This document shows positions 26,914 through 35,870 of a stretch of 38,500 nucleotides of DNA, one piece after another. The stretch is from Treponema sp. GTDB taxonomy: Bacteria > Spirochaetota > Spirochaetia > Treponematales > Breznakiellaceae. Both the position numbers and the translations under genes were made by a program. The stretch lies in the NCBI GenBank assembly GCA_031268125.1, contig JAIRXT010000151.1, positions 1 to 38,500 of the forward strand. The letters run 5' to 3'. Position 1 is the first letter of the stretch, and each line of letters begins with the position of its first letter. A model generated the notes under the pieces. It did not search any database. It saw only the letters and a program-made list of their open reading frames with translations, and was not told where the DNA came from.

Positions 26914-29070
26914 CTAGAAACGGCGGCCGCAGCGGGGCCGCTCATCACGTTTATCCCCATGCTCCGCAGGAGCGCCGTCGGGATCGATGGCGTCAATATA
27001 GGAAAGGTTAAGGCGGCCCATCTTGTCGACTTCCAACAACTTAACAGGAATCTCCTGCCCTTCCTTGACCACATCGGTTACCTGGGCGATCCGCTGGCGG
27101 GAAAGTTTGCTGATATGCACCAAGCCTTCCTTACCGGGCAAAATCTCCACAAAGGCGCCAAAGTCCATGATCCGCTTGACCACACCGTTATAGACACGGC
27201 CGGTCTCCGGGTCCGAGACAATTCCCTGGACCGCCGCCTTGGCTTCCTCCGCGTCCCGGGCGTTTTTCCCGTAAATGGTTACGGTCCCGTCGTTTTCGGT
27301 ATTGATCGTAACACTGTACTGTTCGCAGAGGGCCTTGACGTTCTTGCCGCCGGGACCGATAAGGGCCCCTATTTTGTCCACCTCGATCTTCATCGTAACA
27401 ATCTTGGGGGCGAATTCGCTGATGGAAGCCGCCGGCTTGTTGAGGGTCCGGTTCATGATCGAAAGGATGTGAAGCCTCCCCCGCTTGGCCTGGTCCAGGG
27501 CCTTCCGCATAATCTCCGGGCTTACTCCGGCGATTTTAATGTCCATTTGGAAACCGGTGATCCCGTTTTCGGTCCCGGCAACCTTAAAGTCCATGTCTCC
27601 CAGGTGATCTTCCTCACCCAGAATATCTGAAAGCACCGCGTAGCGGCTGCCGGGCTGGTTGCTTTCGGTGATAAGGCCCATAGCGATCCCCGCCACCGGC
27701 TTTATCATGGGCACCCCGGCATGAAGCATGGCAAGGGTTCCCCCGCAGACCGTCGCCATAGAGGACGAACCGTTGGATTCCATGACCTCCGAGACCACCC
27801 GGACAGTGTAGGGGAATTCCTCTTTGCCGGGAACCATAGCCTCCAGGGAACGGCGGGCCAGGTTGCCGTGGCCGATCTCCCGGCGTCCGGTCCCCATACG
27901 TCCTACCTCTCCCACCGAATAGGGGGGGAAATTGTAATGAAGGATGAAATTCTCCCGCTTGTCCCCGTCAATATCATCGAAGATCTGCTCGTCAAACACG
28001 GTCCCCAGGGTCGTTACCACTAGGGCCTGGGTCTCACCGCGGGTAAACAGGGCCGAACCGTGGGTCCGGGGCAGAATTCCCACTTCGCAGCTAATGTCCC
28101 GGATATCTTCGGTCCCGCGGCCGTCCACACGCCGGCCCTTATCCAGGATGGAAGAACGGAGAATAGCGTATTCCATCTCCTCAAAAAGGGCGTTAAAGAG
28201 CTTTTTCTGGCTTTCATCCGCAAGCTGGGCGGCATATTCCGCCGCAAGGCCGGACTTTACCTTACCGATAGCCTCGCGGCGCTCCTGCTTTCCCTTGAGG
28301 AAACAGGCTTTTTCCAGTTCCGGGTAGGCGGCGGCACGGATAGCATCGGCATGTTCAAGGCTATAATCCGGCAGGATCAGGGGCAGTTTGGGCTTCCCCG
28401 CCAGTTCCCGCAGCTTTTCCTGGAGGGCGCAGAACTCTATGATCACCTGGTGGGCCTTTTCCAGGGCCTCCACCATCAGGTCCTCGCTTACTTCTTTGGC
28501 CCCGCCTTCCACCATCGTGATGCCGTCTTTCGTACCGGCTACCATGATCTCCAGCGTCGAGCGTTCAATGTCCTGATAGCTGGGATTTACCACCAAAAGA
28601 CCGTCTACCTGACAGATCCGCACCCCTGCGATGGGGCCGTTAAACGGAATGTCCGAGATATGGACCGCCGCGGAACTGGCGATAATGGCCAAGATGTCCG
28701 GGGGGTTTATCTGATCGGCGGAAAGCGTGGTGGGAACCACTTGGATTTCCCGGCCGAAGGCCTTGTCGAAGAGGGGCCGCATAGGCCGGTCGATGAGCCT
28801 GGATACCAGGATTTCCTTGTCCTTGGGACGGCCTTCCCGCTTGATAAAGCCGCCGGGAATCTTCCCCGCGGCATAGTATTTTTCGTTATAATCAACCGTC
28901 AGGGGCACATAGTCCAGCCCCTCTACAGCTTCACTTGAAGAACAAACGGTCGCAATAACCGCCGAACCCGCATATTGGGCAAAAACAGCGCCGTTTGCCT
29001 GCTTTGCTATCCTGCCGGTTTCCAGGATAAGATCCTTTCCGCCGATTTGTAATGTTACCTGTTGTGTCAT
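26914..29070 (-). CDS. pnp: polyribonucleotide nucleotidyltransferase
   Basis: The 718-residue PNPase degrades RNA 3' to 5' with phosphate. It has two RNase PH domains (LDYVPLTVDYNEKYYAAGKIPGGFIKREGRP in the first; GEVGRMGTGRREIGHGNLARRSLEAMVP in the second), a KH domain (VDKIGALIGPGGKNVKALCEQ) and an S1 domain (GRVYNGVVKRIMDFGAFVEILPGKEGLVHISKLS). Its ATG follows the rpsO TAA with no gap. No clear ribosome binding site precedes it, which suggests re-initiation after rpsO. The rpsO-pnp order is the classic bacterial arrangement. Confidence 0.97.
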   Translation of the reverse strand: MTQQVTLQIGGKDLILETGRIAKQANGAVFAQYAGSAVIATVCSSSEAVEGLDYVPLTVDYNEKYYAAGKIPGGFIKREGRPKDKEILVSRLIDRPMRPLFDKAFGREIQVVPTTLSADQINPPDILAIIASSAAVHISDIPFNGPIAGVRICQVDGLLVVNPSYQDIERSTLEIMVAGTKDGITMVEGGAKEVSEDLMVEALEKAHQVIIEFCALQEKLRELAGKPKLPLILPDYSLEHADAIRAAAYPELEKACFLKGKQERREAIGKVKSGLAAEYAAQLADESQKKLFNALFEEMEYAILRSSILDKGRRVDGRGTEDIRDISCEVGILPRTHGSALFTRGETQALVVTTLGTVFDEQIFDDIDGDKRENFILHYNFPPYSVGEVGRMGTGRREIGHGNLARRSLEAMVPGKEEFPYTVRVVSEVMESNGSSSMATVCGGTLAMLHAGVPMIKPVAGIAMGLITESNQPGSRYAVLSDILGEEDHLGDMDFKVAGTENGITGFQMDIKIAGVSPEIMRKALDQAKRGRLHILSIMNRTLNKPAASISEFAPKIVTMKIEVDKIGALIGPGGKNVKALCEQYSVTINTENDGTVTIYGKNARDAEEAKAAVQGIVSDPETGRVYNGVVKRIMDFGAFVEILPGKEGLVHISKLSRQRIAQVTDVVKEGQEIPVKLLEVDKMGRLNLSYIDAIDPDGAPAEHGDKRDERPRCGRRF

Positions 29071-29340
29071 TTATTTACGCAGACCCAGATCCTTGATAAG
29101 AGAACGGTAGTTCTCCAGGTTGACCCGCTGGATATACTTCAAAAGCCTCCTGCGTTTTCCAACCAGAATAAGCAGACCCCGCTGACTGGACTTATCCTTC
29201 TTGAACTGCCTGCAATGCTCCGTAAGATGGTTGATCCGTCCGGTAAGCAGGGCAATCTGGACCTCCGTGGCGCCTGAATCCTTTTCGGATTTCCCATACT
29301 TGGAAACAACGGACGCCGATTCTTCTTTGCTTAAAGCCAT
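29071..29340 (-). CDS. rpsO: 30S ribosomal protein S15
   Basis: This 89-residue protein matches S15 throughout (FGKSEKDSGATEVQIALLTGRINHLTEH-like core, KKDKSSQRGLLILVGKRRRLLKYIQ). S15 binds 16S rRNA early in assembly of the small subunit. The frame is open 12 codons further upstream, but the ATG at 29340 has AGGAG 8 bases before it and gives the normal family length. Confidence 0.97.
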   Translation of the reverse strand: MALSKEESASVVSKYGKSEKDSGATEVQIALLTGRINHLTEHCRQFKKDKSSQRGLLILVGKRRRLLKYIQRVNLENYRSLIKDLGLRK

Positions 29341-29353
29341 ATATATTACTCTC

Positions 29354-30142
29354 CTATTGGGAACTGCATAACTCAACGGCTAGTACGTTGAGGTCGGGGG
29401 GAGCCAGGAACAAGCGCCCGGAATCCAGGGTGACGACCGTCTCCCGCCCTGCCGGGGAACCGGCCGTATAGACCCTGGCGGCATAGCGCCCACCGGGGGG
29501 CAGGACCCGCCCTTCTTTCCCCAGGTCATAGAAACAAGCTTCCCCGGTTTTCTCCGGCTCCGGAGTTTCCAGATCCACCCGGAAGGGACGGCCCAGCAGG
29601 GCCGCCGCCCCGGCCAAATCCCCGGCCAGCAGGGCCTGCCGTATACGGCTTGAACTAACCGGCGCATCCCCCTCCCGCAACTGGCTTACCAGTTCGGTAT
29701 GGGTTCCAAAGGGCGCCGCCATATCCCGAATAGCCCGGGCGTCCGTATCCAGGCGGTAACCGCAGCGGAAACCATCACCTAATACCAGATAGGCAACCCG
29801 TTCAAGCCCTATACGAGTAACAAACTCTCCGCCAGTAATTTTACTAATATTCCCGGAAAAGTCAATAAGTACCACAAAACCGGCGCCCAGCGCCTCCAGG
29901 GTCTGAAGTTTTTGGGAGAGGCTGTAAATGTCTCCGGGATACTGTTCCGGGCAGAGAATCCTGCGGGGATTCTGAATAAACGTGATAAGCCCCCCCAGGG
30001 CCCCGTGTTCACCGGCGTAGTTCCGAATCTTTTCGATGAGCTTCTGATGCCCCCGGTGTACGCCGTCAAAGACCCCAATGCTCAGGGCCAGAGGTTGGGA
30101 AAATTCCGCCCGGATAAAACTATCCCAGTCAAAGACCTGCAC
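29354..30142 (-). CDS. ribF: RibF-type FAD synthetase with a degenerate flavokinase half
   Basis: The 262-residue protein has the FMN adenylyltransferase domain of RibF: SIGVFDGVHRGHQKLI (nucleotide-binding HxGH-like site), then LVLGDGFRCGYR and SSSRIRQALLAGDLAGAAALLGRPF. In bifunctional RibF (about 300-320 residues) a riboflavin kinase domain follows with a GxxxGRxLGxPTAN motif. Here the remaining ~80 residues lack that motif and the PTF-like motif; only VLPPGGRYAARVY resembles part of the kinase fold. I infer it makes FAD from FMN but may not phosphorylate riboflavin. GTG 30142 is preferred, with AGGAGGG just upstream and a 14-bp overlap with truB, over longer in-frame starts such as ATG 30178. 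Confidence 0.85.
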   Translation of the reverse strand: MQVFDWDSFIRAEFSQPLALSIGVFDGVHRGHQKLIEKIRNYAGEHGALGGLITFIQNPRRILCPEQYPGDIYSLSQKLQTLEALGAGFVVLIDFSGNISKITGGEFVTRIGLERVAYLVLGDGFRCGYRLDTDARAIRDMAAPFGTHTELVSQLREGDAPVSSSRIRQALLAGDLAGAAALLGRPFRVDLETPEPEKTGEACFYDLGKEGRVLPPGGRYAARVYTAGSPAGRETVVTLDSGRLFLAPPDLNVLAVELCSSQ

Positions 30143-31121
30143 GGGTCCCTCCTGTCCCGCAGTCCCCGGCGTAAACATAGCCGTAGTTCCAGCGCCCGTC
30201 CGCGGCCCGTTCCACGATACCGGCAAAACGATCCCCCGCGAAAACCGCCGCCGGGGCGCCTTCGCCGCAGAGCGCCCCCTCCGGAATCAGACCGGCCAGC
30301 AGGGAATCCAGCGGGCGGCCGTGAATCATGGGAAGCAGGACATCCGCCCCCGCTTCAAGGCGGGGGATTCCCAGGGCTTCAAACAGAGTCCGGTCCACGG
30401 GCCGCAGGGCCTCCCGATAAGCCCGGCTGACCCCTTCGCCCCCGGCGGCTTCCGGGCAAAGGGCGGCCTCCACGGAGAAGCCCGCCACCGCCAGCCTCCG
30501 CAGCTCCGCAAGGTGGGCCCGGGAACCGCAGGCCAGGGCAAGATCCCGGGCCAGAGAACGGATATAGGCGCCGCCGGAACAGCGAACGAGGATCCGGGCC
30601 AGCGGGGGCTCCCAGGAAACCAGGCGGAGTTCGTAGATCGTAACCGGCCGGGCCTTCATTTCCGGCTTCTCCCCGGCCCGGGCCAGTTCCGAAGCACGGC
30701 GGCCGTCCAGGTGAATCGCCGAATAGAGGGGCGGCGTCTGGAGAATGTTCCCCCGGAACCGGGGCAGAACTTCTTCAAACTGCTGCCGGGACGGAACGGG
30801 CCCCCGGGCGGCCGCGCTGCCCTCCGGGTCCAGGGTATCGGTTTCCGTGCCAAAGAAGATCGCCGCCAGGTAGGTTTTATCACAGTGGGAAATCCAGGGG
30901 CTTAACCGGGTTGCCCGCCCTGCCAGGACAATGAGCAAACCGGAGGCAAATTTATCCAGCGTCCCCGTATGGCCCACCTTGCCGGTCCCCAGGGCCTTTT
31001 TCACCGCCCATAAGGCTTCAAAAGAGGTTTGACCGGGGCTTTTATCCAGCAGCAGGAAGCCTGAAATTTCAGGACGGAGGGAAGAACCGGCCTCCCCGCC
31101 TCCGGGGACCGTTGTCTTCAT
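30129..31121 (-). CDS. truB: tRNA pseudouridine-55 synthase
   Basis: The 330-residue enzyme converts U55 of the tRNA T-loop to pseudouridine. It has the GFLLLDKSPGQTSF start, the catalytic motif GHTGTLDKFASGLL (D56), the KTYLAAIFFGTETDTLD motif and RCSGGAYIRSLARDLA. The ATG overlaps the rbfA stop by 4 bp, and the C-terminal end overlaps ribF by 14 bp. The C-terminal part is the usual PUA-like region, here Ala/Gly/Pro-rich. Confidence 0.95.
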   Translation of the reverse strand: MKTTVPGGGEAGSSLRPEISGFLLLDKSPGQTSFEALWAVKKALGTGKVGHTGTLDKFASGLLIVLAGRATRLSPWISHCDKTYLAAIFFGTETDTLDPEGSAAARGPVPSRQQFEEVLPRFRGNILQTPPLYSAIHLDGRRASELARAGEKPEMKARPVTIYELRLVSWEPPLARILVRCSGGAYIRSLARDLALACGSRAHLAELRRLAVAGFSVEAALCPEAAGGEGVSRAYREALRPVDRTLFEALGIPRLEAGADVLLPMIHGRPLDSLLAGLIPEGALCGEGAPAAVFAGDRFAGIVERAADGRWNYGYVYAGDCGTGGTRAGL

Positions 31122-31498
31122 CCGGCCGTATCGTCCCCGGAAACCCCGCCGCCCCCGGTGAGTTGTTCAATTTTTTTTACCAGATCGAAACCTTCCCGAA
31201 TCCCCGCATCCGCGTGAAAACGGAGGCGGGGCATCTTACGGATCCGCATAAAGGAGGCAAGCTCGGTCTGGATAAACCCGGCGGCGTTTTGCAGTCCTTC
31301 CACGGCCCTGGCAAGGCTGCCGTGTTCCCGGACATTGGAAACATACACATCCGCAAAGGCCAGGTCCCGGGAAACCCGGACCCGGGTAATGGACAGCAGG
31401 AAATGAACCCGCGGGTCTTTGATCCTGCCTTCAAGAATAAGGGCGCCGATCTTTTGCTGTATCTGGCGCCCTATGCGCTCTGTTCTAAATTCTCCCAT
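31118..31498 (-). CDS. rbfA: ribosome-binding factor A
   Basis: The 126-residue protein carries the KH-like RbfA fold: FRTERIGRQIQQKIGALILEGRIKDPRV, then LLSITRVRVSRDLAFADVYVSN and ASFMRIRKMPRLRFHAD. It helps mature the 5' end of 16S rRNA and is needed in cold adaptation in model bacteria. It starts 23 bp after infB with only a weak ribosome binding site and overlaps truB by 4 bp, matching the standard infB-rbfA-truB order. Confidence 0.95.
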   Translation of the reverse strand: MGEFRTERIGRQIQQKIGALILEGRIKDPRVHFLLSITRVRVSRDLAFADVYVSNVREHGSLARAVEGLQNAAGFIQTELASFMRIRKMPRLRFHADAGIREGFDLVKKIEQLTGGGGVSGDDTAG

Positions 31499-31524
31499 TG
31501 CCGCTTATTCCGTGGGGAGGGGAA

Positions 31525-34236
31525 CTATTCCCCCCCCTTCGATGCGGAAGACAGCTTCCGCGCCACTTCCACAATCTCCAAAATTTCCAGTTGATCACCC
31601 ACTTTAATATCGTGGTAATCCTCAATGCCGATACCGCACTCGTAACCGGCGGCCACTTCCCGGGCATCGTCTTTGAAACGTTTAAGGCTGGAGAGCTTAC
31701 CCCGGTGGATCACCGTGTCCTCCCGGATAACATTCACGCTGCAGGAACGCTTAACCGTACCGGTAAGAACATAGCACCCGGCGATGGTCCCCACCCGGGG
31801 AACAGAAAAGGTATTCCGCACCTCCACCGTGGCAATAACATCTTCCCGGGTAATGGGTTTAAGCATCCCCTCCATTGCCTGCTGTATCTCGTCCACCGCC
31901 TTGTAGATCACATTGTAGCGGCGGATATCTACTTTTTCCTGATCCGCCAGGGTCTTTGCCTTGGGGACCGGCCTTACATTAAAGCCGATGATAATGGCGT
32001 TGCTGGCAATGGCCAGGTCCACATCCCCTTCGTTGATGGCGCCGGGCAGAGCCTGGATCACGTGGAGCCGAACCTCTCCGGTGGAAAGTTTTTCCAGACT
32101 GGAGCGCAGGGCCTCGGCAGAACCCTGAACGTCGGACTTGATAATAACCTTGAGTTCCTGAATGGCCCCGTCGCTGATGGTCTCCCGCAAATTGTCCAGG
32201 GTTATTTTCTTGACGTTTTTGGCGTCCTCAAACCGCTTTAGTTCCTGCCGCTTGCTGGAAAAACCACGGGCAATCTTTTCATCGTCCACAACCTGCAGCG
32301 GGTCCCCGGCGTTGGGAATCCCCTCAAAACCCAGGACCTCAATGGGCATAGAGGGGCCGGCCTTCTCCAGCTTTTCCCCCTTGTCGTTGAATATGGCCCG
32401 CACCTTGCCGGGCCACACCCCGGCCACAAAGGAGTCCCCTACCGCAAGGGTCCCCTTTTCCACCAGAACCGTAGCCACAATGCCGCGGCCGTGGTCGATT
32501 CGGGATTCCAGCACCTTGCCTTCGGCGCTGCGGTCGTAGTTGGCCTTCAGCTCCAGTATATCCGCCTGCACGAGTATCGCCTCGATAAGCTTATCAATAC
32601 CCTTTTTTTGCAGGGCCGAAAGCTCGACAAATATGGTCTGCCCGCCCCAGTCCTCCGGCATAAGCCCCAGTTCTGAAAGCTGGCTTTTTACCCGGTCGGG
32701 GTTTGCCTCCGGCTTGTCAATCTTGTTTACCGCCACAATGATGGGGACATCCGCCTCCTTGGCGTGGTTAATCGCCTCCACCGTCTGGGGCATGACCCCG
32801 TCGTCGGCGGCCACCACCAGAACCACAATGTCCGTTACCTGGGCGCCCCTGGCCCTCATACGGGTAAAAGCCTCGTGGCCGGGGGTATCCAGAAACGTAA
32901 TGCTGCCCTGCCCGGCGCTGACCATATAAGCGCCGATATGCTGGGTAATGCCCCCAAATTCGCCGGACACCACATCGGTACTGCGGATGGCGTCCAGCAG
33001 CTTTGTCTTACCGTGATCGACATGGCCCATCACCGTTACCACCGGCGGCCGGGGCAGGAGTTTTGCCCCCGCGTCGGAGATGGTTTCTATCTGGGTCTCG
33101 TCGTACAGGCTGATGATCTTCACGTCGGTGCCGTATTCACCGGCCAGGATAGCCGCCGTATCCGCGTCTATCTGCTGGTTGATGGTAACCATCATCCCCA
33201 TGCTCATGAGTTTATGGATCAGCTCCGATGCCTTTAGATTCATCTTGCGGGCCAGTTCGGAAACCGACACGCCTTCCATAATTTCGATAGACTTCGGCAC
33301 CGGGTTGGCGATATGGGTGATCTTTTTCTTGGTCTGGAGGAGCTTCTCCTCCATTTCCAGTTCTTTTTCTTTCCGGTTGTAAACCGGCTTCTTTGCCTTA
33401 AAGGTCCGCTTAACTGCGGTCTTGCCCTCCGGCAGGGGGCCGGCGGCAGGGGCGCCGGGACGTCCGGGTCCGCCGGGGCGCGGCCCGCTAAAGGGCGGCC
33501 GGCCGAAACCGCCGGGACGGGGGCCCTGCCCCGGGGGGCCGAAGCGCCCACCGCCGGGACGGGGACCGGAAAAACCCTGCCCCGGAGGGCCGAAGCGCCC
33601 GCCGGAACCACCGGGACCGCCCGGCCCGGGGCGGCCTACGGGACGGCCCCCTACCCTGCCGGCGGCCCCCGCAGGACGGCCGGCAAAAGGAGCCCCGCCG
33701 CGGTTCCCATCGTCCCGGCGGCCCACGGGACGGCCCCCTACCCTGCCGGCGGCCCCCGCAGGACGCGCCGTTATCGAAAAGCCTTCGGTCCGTTCAGGCG
33801 GACGCTGGGGGCGGCGCTCCCCGGCGCCGGGATTGGTGGAAGTTCTGGCGGGCCCGGCCTTAAACGGCCCGCCTCTGTCGCTTTTAACCGCATCGTTTTT
33901 GACCACAGGGGGGGCGGCAGTTTTGACGGGCCTTTCGTCCTGTACCGGGACTTCGGCGGGGACCGGGACAGGCTTCGGCTCTTCCGCAACACCGTTTTCC
34001 GGCGGAGGCTTGACCGCGGCGGCCGGATGAGCGGCCACTACTACCTTCGGCTGAGGCTTTCTGCCCGCATTAAGCCCCTGGGGTTTCTTTTTCAGCACGA
34101 TAACCTTGCGCGGGGGTGTTTCCGGTCCGGCGTTCTGCCGTTCCCCCCCGCCGTTTCGTGAAGCCTCCCCCTCGTTCTGGGTACGCTTAATAAGTTCCGC
34201 CTTAGGTTTCCGGGTGTTTTCTATTTCCTCAGCCAT
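31525..34236 (-). CDS. infB: translation initiation factor IF-2
   Basis: The 903-residue GTPase recruits initiator tRNA to the small ribosomal subunit. The first ~290 residues are low-complexity, Arg/Gly/Pro-rich sequence ([28 protein letters not shown]). The IF2-N domain follows ([25 protein letters not shown]). The G domain begins near residue 398 with GHVDHGKT, then DTPGHEAF and NKID. IF2 domains II-IV complete the C-terminal half. ATG 34236 has AAAGGTGG close upstream. The length is normal for long-form bacterial IF-2; the RGG/GPPG-like N-terminus is more extreme than usual and probably disordered. Confidence 0.96.
33638..33764 (-). repeat. 40-bp perfect direct repeat within infB
   Basis: The 40 bases at 33638-33677 recur exactly at 33725-33764, 87 bases (29 codons) apart and in the same phase. 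They encode duplicated [15 protein letters not shown]-type units of the disordered IF-2 N-terminus. Slippage or recombination between copies would keep the frame. Confidence 0.9.
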
Positions 34237-34287: not shown

Positions 34288-35766
34288 TCATTCCTCATCT
34301 TCTTCGTATTCAAAACTCAAACCAATACCGCAATTGGGGCAGACCGTCATATCCACGGTGATCTTGGCCCCGCACTCAGGACATTCGTATTCTTCAAGCC
34401 CGGCCTCCTCTTCTTCGGAAACACCGGCGGCATCCTCTTCCTGTTCGGCCGCGGCATCTTCTTCTTCCTCGACAATTTCCACATTTTCTTCGATAAGTTT
34501 ACGCAGCACGTCGAATTGTTCCGCCCCGACCTCTTTGAATTCCTCAAGCTGGGCCGGAGTAAGGGCAAGAAAATCTTCGATGAACTCCACATTACCCGCT
34601 TTAAGGGCTTCAACCACGTCCGCCCTGACGCCGGGAAGCTCGGCAATACGGGAAAATTCCTCCCCGTACTCGTCGGCGTCCCCAAAAAGTTCGGAAACCG
34701 CCCGCCGGGATTCGGCAGCAATATCCATCTCCGCAAATTGGGCGTCGGTCTTTACATCGATATTCCAGTCCACTAGGCGGTTGGCAAGCCGGACGTTAAG
34801 CCCCTGTTTGCCGATAGCCAGGGAAAGCTGGGAATCGTTGACCACCGCCAGGGCCTGGTGCTTCCCCTCGTCCAGGATGATCACATCCCGTACCTCCGCG
34901 GGGGACAGTGCGTTCTTGATAAACCGCCGGGGGTCCGGGTCATATTTCAAAATATCGATCTTTTCCCCTTCCAGCTCCCGGATAACCGCCTGAATCCGCA
35001 CCCCTTTAAGGCCCACACAGGCCCCCACCGGGTCCACATCCTCCCGGTTGGAATAAACCGCCAGCTTGGTACGGTAGCCCGGCTCCCGGACAATCTTGTG
35101 GATCTCCACCGTTTTGTCGTAGACCTCCGGTACTTCCAGCTCAAAAATGGCCCGGACAAAATCCGTATGAGTCCGGGAAAGAATCACCTGGAACCCCGAC
35201 GCCGTCTTGTTGACCTCCGTAATCAGGGCCTTGATGCGGTCGTTGACATGGTAGGTCTCCCGGGGGGATTGAAATTTTTTGGGAAGTATCCCCTCGATCT
35301 TGCCCAAGTCCACGTAAATGGTGCCATTCCGCTCCCGCTGGTAGTAGCCAATGATAATTTCCCCCGCCTTGTCCCGGAATTCCGAGAAGAGGGTGTCCTT
35401 TTGTATCGCCCGAATGGACTGATGGGCGGTCTGTTTGGCGCTCTGGACCGCAACACGGTCAAAATCCTTGGGGTCCACCTCGATAAGGATCTCGTCCCCC
35501 ACCTCCGCCTCCGGGTTCAGTTCCCGGGCGTCTTCAATATCAATTTCCGAAACCGGGTCGTAAACACCTTCAACAATCTGCTTTTGGGCATAGATAGAAA
35601 CCTCCCGGTTGTCATCGCTAAAACGGACAATGGCGTTATCGGCATTGCCAAAGCGGCGCTTATAGGCGGCTATGAGGGTATTTTCTATGGTTTTGAGGAT
35701 AAGCTCCTCTGATATTCCCCGATCCTGACTGATCTGACGGATCGCATCGGACATATCGGTTGCCAC
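34288..35766 (-). CDS. nusA: transcription factor NusA with an added C-terminal zinc ribbon
   Basis: The 492-residue protein has the NusA N-terminal RNA-polymerase-binding domain (AIRQISQDRGISEELILKTIENTLIAAYKRRFG), an S1 domain (~130-200), two KH domains (VGACVGLKGVRIQAVIREL; LAIGKQGLNVRLANRL), and a helix-hairpin-helix region (AELPGVRADVVEALKAG). A Glu-rich linker then leads to a zinc ribbon at C462, C465, C476, C479 (C-x2-C-x10-C-x2-C). That ribbon is not part of standard NusA. GTG 35766 is chosen because GGGAGGT lies 7 bases upstream; ATG 35754 is too far from it. It is the first gene of a long operon; no rimP precedes it. NusA controls pausing, termination and antitermination. Confidence 0.94.
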   Translation of the reverse strand: MATDMSDAIRQISQDRGISEELILKTIENTLIAAYKRRFGNADNAIVRFSDDNREVSIYAQKQIVEGVYDPVSEIDIEDARELNPEAEVGDEILIEVDPKDFDRVAVQSAKQTAHQSIRAIQKDTLFSEFRDKAGEIIIGYYQRERNGTIYVDLGKIEGILPKKFQSPRETYHVNDRIKALITEVNKTASGFQVILSRTHTDFVRAIFELEVPEVYDKTVEIHKIVREPGYRTKLAVYSNREDVDPVGACVGLKGVRIQAVIRELEGEKIDILKYDPDPRRFIKNALSPAEVRDVIILDEGKHQALAVVNDSQLSLAIGKQGLNVRLANRLVDWNIDVKTDAQFAEMDIAAESRRAVSELFGDADEYGEEFSRIAELPGVRADVVEALKAGNVEFIEDFLALTPAQLEEFKEVGAEQFDVLRKLIEENVEIVEEEEDAAAEQEEDAAGVSEEEEAGLEEYECPECGAKITVDMTVCPNCGIGLSFEYEEDEE

Positions 35767-35784
35767 TCTGGTACCTCCCAACAT

Positions 35785-35815
35785 AAAAAAAGGGCCGTTT
35801 GAAACGCCCTTTTTT
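35785..35815 (-). promoter_or_regulatory. terminator-like attenuator hairpin in the nusA leader
   Basis: On the minus strand a stem of A6-GGG, then CGTT with one bulged base opposite, and a 3-base loop runs into seven T residues (35791-35785). The T run ends 4 bases before the GGGAGGT ribosome binding site of nusA (35780-35774). It therefore lies between the promoter at 35842-35870 and the gene and would stop transcription before nusA unless bypassed. The symmetric A and T runs would also let it terminate in the opposite direction. Confidence 0.7.
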
Positions 35816-35841
35816 GTTATGGAATCTCAACTGTCGCTGTT

Positions 35842-35870
35842 ACTGTAAAGAAAACTGATGATCATGTCAA
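35842..35870 (-). promoter_or_regulatory. sigma-70 promoter of the nusA operon
   Basis: On the minus strand a perfect TTGACA (35870-35865) and TACAGT (35847-35842, 4 of 6 consensus) are 17 bases apart. Transcription should start near 35835, giving a leader of about 68 bases that contains the hairpin at 35785-35815. Confidence 0.65.

Follow-up and report, generated by a model that had tools for sequence, protein, structure and literature searches.

The promoter, leader and terminator of nusA

The analysed DNA, hereafter the window, is a stretch of 38,500 nucleotides from a Treponema sp. in which nusA (34288..35766, minus strand; TIGR01953 at 422 bits) begins with a GTG at 35766, a start that is kept in relatives. 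This GTG, and not an in-frame ATG at 35784, was taken as the conserved start because relatives show ATT at the latter position. The initial annotation had described a promoter followed by a leader of about 68 bases, and the minus strand bears this out. A sigma-70 type promoter, TTGACA-N17-TACAGT (35842..35870), carries its -35 hexamer at 35870-35865 and, after a 17-nt spacer, its -10 hexamer at 35847-35842; it scored 10 of 12 in the scan and its hexamers are kept in relatives. Judging from the -10 position, transcription likely starts at about 35836-35834, which would give a nusA 5′ leader spanning 35767..35835 (~69 nt, minus strand). A conserved block, GACAG, starts at this predicted site (~35835).

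The leader contains an intrinsic terminator (35785..35815, minus strand), composed of an A6-GGGC...GCCC hairpin (35815-35792) and seven T (35791-35785), and identified by sequence, folding, compensatory changes and a covariance model. A hairpin and seven-U tract ahead of the nusA Shine-Dalgarno had been annotated initially, and both sequence and folding agree with that reading; the gap between the last T and the Shine-Dalgarno GGGAGG (35774..35779, minus strand), whose bases are for the most part paired in the fold predicted for the read-through RNA, amounts to five bases. The terminator alone folded at -12.1 kcal/mol, with 0 out of 200 shuffles as good, and the terminator together with the 5′ part folded at -13.5 kcal/mol (2 out of 200 shuffles). 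Our first terminator scan missed this hairpin because its loop limit was 8. Other identities of the element were rejected. No ATG with a Shine-Dalgarno lies 5′ of the hairpin, as a leader peptide would have, and there is no fixed reading frame across the leaders since the length of the A-run differs between relatives. A terminator of the upstream ABC genes was ruled out by the conserved promoter that separates the hairpin from them, and a dispersed repeat by the hairpin core, which occurs only once in the 2.2 Mb genome.

Behind nusA, the genes infB, rbfA, truB, ribF, rpsO and pnp (26914..34236) are tightly packed on the same strand. Because of this tight order, co-control of IF-2, RbfA, TruB, RibF, S15 and PNPase would be expected, as had been proposed for IF-2, S15 and PNPase, and the genes through pnp likely follow nusA expression. 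Control had also been extended to the rhamnose genes; we found no evidence for it. These genes lie ~12 kb further on, beyond dut, lptF and lptG, and a promoter-like site is located at 29865 within the cluster. This site, TTGACT-N16-TAAAAT (29865-29838, minus strand), is located inside ribF, upstream of rpsO-pnp, and may uncouple rpsO-pnp from the nusA leader. At the C-terminal end of NusA (34288-34400, minus strand), an acidic stretch is followed by a zinc-ribbon-like CPECG...CPNCG motif, which is also present in locus L097 and gave weak NCBIfam ribbon matches.

Conservation of the leader and its position relative to rimP

NusA was found in 57 out of 59 related genomes, yielding 80 named loci, mostly from termite-gut Treponema MAGs, plus Breznakiella homolactica and Gracilinema. 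The same-genus loci with upstream sequence numbered five (L003-L006 and L008; a sixth contig, L007, starts within the hairpin), and all five kept the promoter hexamers, their spacing, the 5′ block GACAGTTGAGATTCC, the hairpin and the T7. TTGACA and TAnnnT were invariant in the same-genus leaders and the spacer was variable. Identities of the leader versus the four-fold degenerate sites of nusA were 0.83/0.75, 0.85/0.74, 0.85/0.71, 0.80/0.65 and 0.75/0.58 in the five relatives, while the 100 bp upstream of the promoter could not be aligned among them (0.41-0.48 in a forced global alignment). Since the leader is conserved and the DNA upstream of the promoter is unrelated, the promoter-leader module appears to travel with nusA. 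As judged from these comparisons, the match of the leader to an attenuator layout is not due to chance. L008 (genome G004) has another GC-rich palindrome, ACCGGTTTTCCGGCCTGAACCGG, ~60 nt before nusA, where it separates the leader from the ribosome binding site of this gene.

Across the termite-gut Treponema family, the same module was present at 77 loci, 70 before rimP-nusA and 7 before nusA. The cultured relative Breznakiella homolactica RmG30 (L043) also carries the leader. TTGACA was found in 77/77 and the exact GGGC/GCCC in 22/77, the remainder showing GGGTC, GAGTC or GGAGTC variants; over 42 leaders, the stem was maintained by compensatory changes. A covariance model built from 42 leaders (R2) matched the window at 35783-35838 (E 2.2e-8) and 34 of the 59 genomes, nearly always once each and at the rimP/nusA operon in 33 of the 34. 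Apart from hits to this hairpin on the opposite strand, the model strayed from the operon at a single site in G051 and at an additional one in G052. Over 296 Spirochaetes genomes, the R2 matches were essentially confined to this family (stricter filters lose weak matches), so the sequence form of the leader seems to be family-specific. Related promoter-terminator leaders also stand before rimP in other families of the order. Locus L092, which also carries the leader before rimP, has another strong hairpin resembling a terminator, CCGCGG...CCGCGG-T6, behind rimP and 27 nt before nusA.

Most other genera have rimP directly preceding nusA, with the promoter, 5′ block, A-run, hairpin and T run of the module located before rimP. 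In the genus of the window, rimP is gone from the nusA operon and the leader remains at nusA. Genomes G001, G002 and G005 carry rimP on another contig behind another gene (in G001, dihydroorotase/allantoinase-like by reading the sequence), without a leader, and keep the leader at nusA. The same applies to G003, with a leaderless rimP ~9 kb upstream of nusA, and the order in G004 is rimP, leader, nusA. No rimP was detected in a genome of another genus (G012, 95% complete), whose leader is at nusA; rimP was likewise not found in the window's own genome, an assembly that is only 77% complete. As read from gene order, the leader module is older than its present position at nusA. Its staying at nusA where rimP left points to nusA, or infB behind it, as the gene served, and not to rimP.

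Predicted pairing between the 5′ end of the leader and its own terminator

Folding and family-wide complementarity predicted that the RNA carries at its 5′ end an antiterminator strand, GTTGAGATTCC (35821..35831, minus strand), whose alternative partner would be GGGCGTTTCAAAC, the terminator 5′ arm and loop (35797..35809, minus strand). When window transcripts were cut before the complete 3′ arm, 35821-35831 folded onto 35809-35797 at -5.8 kcal/mol. This antiterminator is weak compared with the terminator (-5.8 vs -13.5 kcal/mol), and 19 out of 200 shuffles folded as well. The 5′ block folded onto the terminator 5′ arm and loop of similarly cut transcripts in most leaders; in the same-genus locus L005, this folding gave no antiterminator pairing. 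In the folds of the main group, 11 bp form between GUCGAAGAUUC and GGGUC(G)UUCGGC. Elsewhere, the paired strands differ by lineage and yet match, as in UUCGGAA/UUCCGAA (L062), GUCUGAA/UUCAGAC (L087), GUUUGAG/CUCAGAC (L037) and GUCUAA/UUAGAC (L061). The antiterminator strands are separated by an additional stem-loop, in which GATTC is often repeated, in L012, L049, L055, L056 and L068, as well as in L070, L093, L103 and L109.

The correspondence was measured by comparing each 13-nt 5′ core with its own and with swapped hairpins, correcting for base composition. This corrected test was adopted because earlier ones were partly driven by composition: the first swap test and a full-segment tree-paired test were confounded by it, and the full-segment controls were also significant. 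With 55 representatives (<90% NusA identity), the cores scored -0.97 with their own hairpins vs -0.02 with swapped ones (z -8.1), and smaller representative sets gave z -5.7 (35) and z -4.3 (21). The controls, in which cores or hairpins were reversed or the untranscribed promoter spacer was used, ranged from +0.8 to -2.0. Among tree-paired sisters, the own hairpin was better in 21 out of 27 cases (p 0.003), compared to 16 out of 27 in the reversed control. Covariation of the two strands in a rigid alignment did not rise above shuffles, a test that is uninformative here since bulges shift the register. In other families of the order, the promoter and terminator were present and the own-versus-swapped pairing was not significant. 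Altogether, the lineage-by-lineage complementarity between the 5′ end and the terminator implies an antiterminator, the 5′ end of the leader having apparently co-evolved to pair with its own terminator in this family.

The rimP-leader class and proposed control of the nusA operon

The element resembles the rimP-leader attenuator (Naville and Gautheret 2010, PMC2965389; Rfam RF01770), with which it shares the operon, the GGGC...GCCC stem and the U run. In that class, the 5′ UTR of the operon contains an intrinsic terminator, formed by a GGGc(...)gCCC stem and a U stretch behind it, at 4-130 nt from the start of the gene. The window terminator lies in the 5′ UTR of an operon in which rimP is not the first gene (35815-35785), has GGGC...GCCC and U7, and is located 18 nt before nusA. 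This distance was 18-64 nt at the nusA loci and 61-252 nt at the rimP loci, a few of which go beyond the published 4-130. Unlike the published leaders, the window element stands before nusA without rimP. The short rimP-leader was also reported without a visible antiterminator, which is a reported property and not a requirement of the class, whereas one is predicted here; an upstream tandem antiterminator was described in some Gammaproteobacteria (PMC2965389). The E. coli rimP leader reads GGGCTTTAGGCCCTTTTTTTATGTCTTGGGGG and the window leader GGGCGTTTCAAACGGCCCTTTTTTTATGTTGGGAGG, and both contain GGGC...GGCCCTTTTTTTATGT. In E. coli K-12 (L144 500-620), the upstream terminator contains AAAGCCC, the complement of GGGCTTT in the rimP-leader stem; pairing of the two could possibly constitute an antiterminator of a different build.

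The RF01770 model (47-bit gathering score) gave no match at the window leader, and its relaxed-threshold matches were all off-site. None of 36 genomes scored over the cut-off, nor did more than 1 of 14 control genomes, and from this control count we consider the model narrow. At gathering and relaxed thresholds, Rfam returned no family for the leader, the best weak match being STnc320 (24.4 bits vs a cut-off of 50). Other bacteria offer precedents at the same operon. B. subtilis controls entry into the nusA operon by NusA-stimulated intrinsic termination in its own 5′ leader, a feedback that experiments there have attributed to NusA (PMC12288461, citing Mondal 2016), an arrangement similar to the leader terminator before the operon here, for which NusA stimulation is proposed. 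In S. agalactiae, RNA-seq showed termination at an intrinsic terminator 31 nt after the start of gbs0413-gbs0418, and NusA feedback was proposed (PMC4448216). These are the same genes, although rimP comes first there and the distance is 31 nt, against ~50 nt in the window, counted up to the last U of the tract. Judged by the shared operon, the stem and these precedents, the element is a rimP-leader-type attenuator in a new setting, the spirochete form of the published one. Conservation, the order promoter-hairpin-U tract-ribosome binding site and the unbiased genome searches thus support the attenuator reading of the initial annotation, to which two points are added: the membership in a known, very widespread attenuator class and a 5′ strand that would compete with the terminator.

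We consider it probable that this attenuator sets the entry of RNA polymerase into nusA-infB-rbfA-truB-ribF-rpsO-pnp, with NusA as the likeliest effector. In the proposed mechanism, the RNA would start near 35835 and its first 15 or so bases, GACAGUUGAGAUUCC, would pair with GGGCGUUUCAAAC, the 5′ arm and loop of the terminator about to form, and delay the latter. When the 3′ arm GCCC emerges, the stabler GGGC/GCCC hairpin would displace the antiterminator and, with the U7, end a short RNA of ~50 nt, while a polymerase that has passed the U tract first would go on to make nusA mRNA. By analogy with other bacteria, NusA would slow the polymerase and stabilise hairpins in the exit channel, giving the terminator time to form. 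Since NusA would favour the terminator, high NusA levels would lead to more termination and less NusA. More tentatively, and at somewhat less than an even chance, we propose that termite-gut Treponema and relatives possess a two-state RNA switch devoted to nusA, in which a co-evolving 5′ antiterminator strand is present, NusA sets the balance and the arrangement persisted after rimP left.

A strong promoter followed by a constantly leaky terminator could simply scale expression and shield nusA from upstream read-through, and the window terminator is indeed far more stable than the antiterminator; the upstream genes differ among relatives, so that insulation would be useful. Such a pair, however, gives no reason for a 5′ strand to co-evolve with the hairpin, nor for order-wide persistence at one operon only, and we regard a fixed attenuator as unlikely. 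A small RNA of ~50 nt acting in trans as the main product would account for the conserved 5′ end plus terminator, which is an sRNA layout, and for the 5′ block being conserved within the genus. Nevertheless, between genera this block changes in step with its hairpin, as would suit a cis role better than fixed targets, and the element is always found before rimP/nusA, making a trans-acting RNA extremely improbable. Control of translation, with an extended hairpin hiding the nusA Shine-Dalgarno in the full-length RNA, would agree with the predicted pairing of GGGA with UUCC (35824-35821) in the window, L003 and L006. This pairing is weaker or absent in L005 and L008, and in 70/77 loci the hairpin is 61-252 nt from the start codon; translational control is very unlikely as the main mode, and Shine-Dalgarno pairing would possibly be a second layer, at most an added one in this genus.

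As for the effector, the operon encodes several RNA-binding proteins, and a switch could respond in trans to RimP, IF-2, S15 or a ribosome-assembly signal; feedback by RimP was also considered for the rimP-leader (PMC2965389). The leader nevertheless remains at nusA when rimP moves, as it does in G012 without a detectable rimP. It is also too short to hold a known ribosomal-protein or metabolite site, and Rfam gave no match. An effector other than NusA is thus distinctly unlikely, even more so than the unregulated attenuator. Attenuation of nusA in B. subtilis reportedly needs no antiterminator, unlike the co-evolving one predicted here. Weak terminators are also said to be the main targets of NusA in that species, and the window hairpin with its U7 is stronger than those, which counts against NusA. 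NusA itself is still most likely the effector of the leader; in the rimP-leader literature it is the favoured one, with evidence from E. coli (PMC2965389). Autoregulation of NusA via the leader is plausible, on the basis of the published precedents and of the leader staying with nusA.

The rimP-leader has been called the most ubiquitous predicted attenuator, and, except in a handful of model species, the gene that it serves and its mode of switching have been left open. Lineages whose leader still stands at nusA although rimP is gone constitute a natural experiment that identifies this gene, and the co-evolving 5′ strand offers a simple mutational handle on the switch mechanism. If the proposed reading is true, it would extend NusA feedback to the spirochetes.
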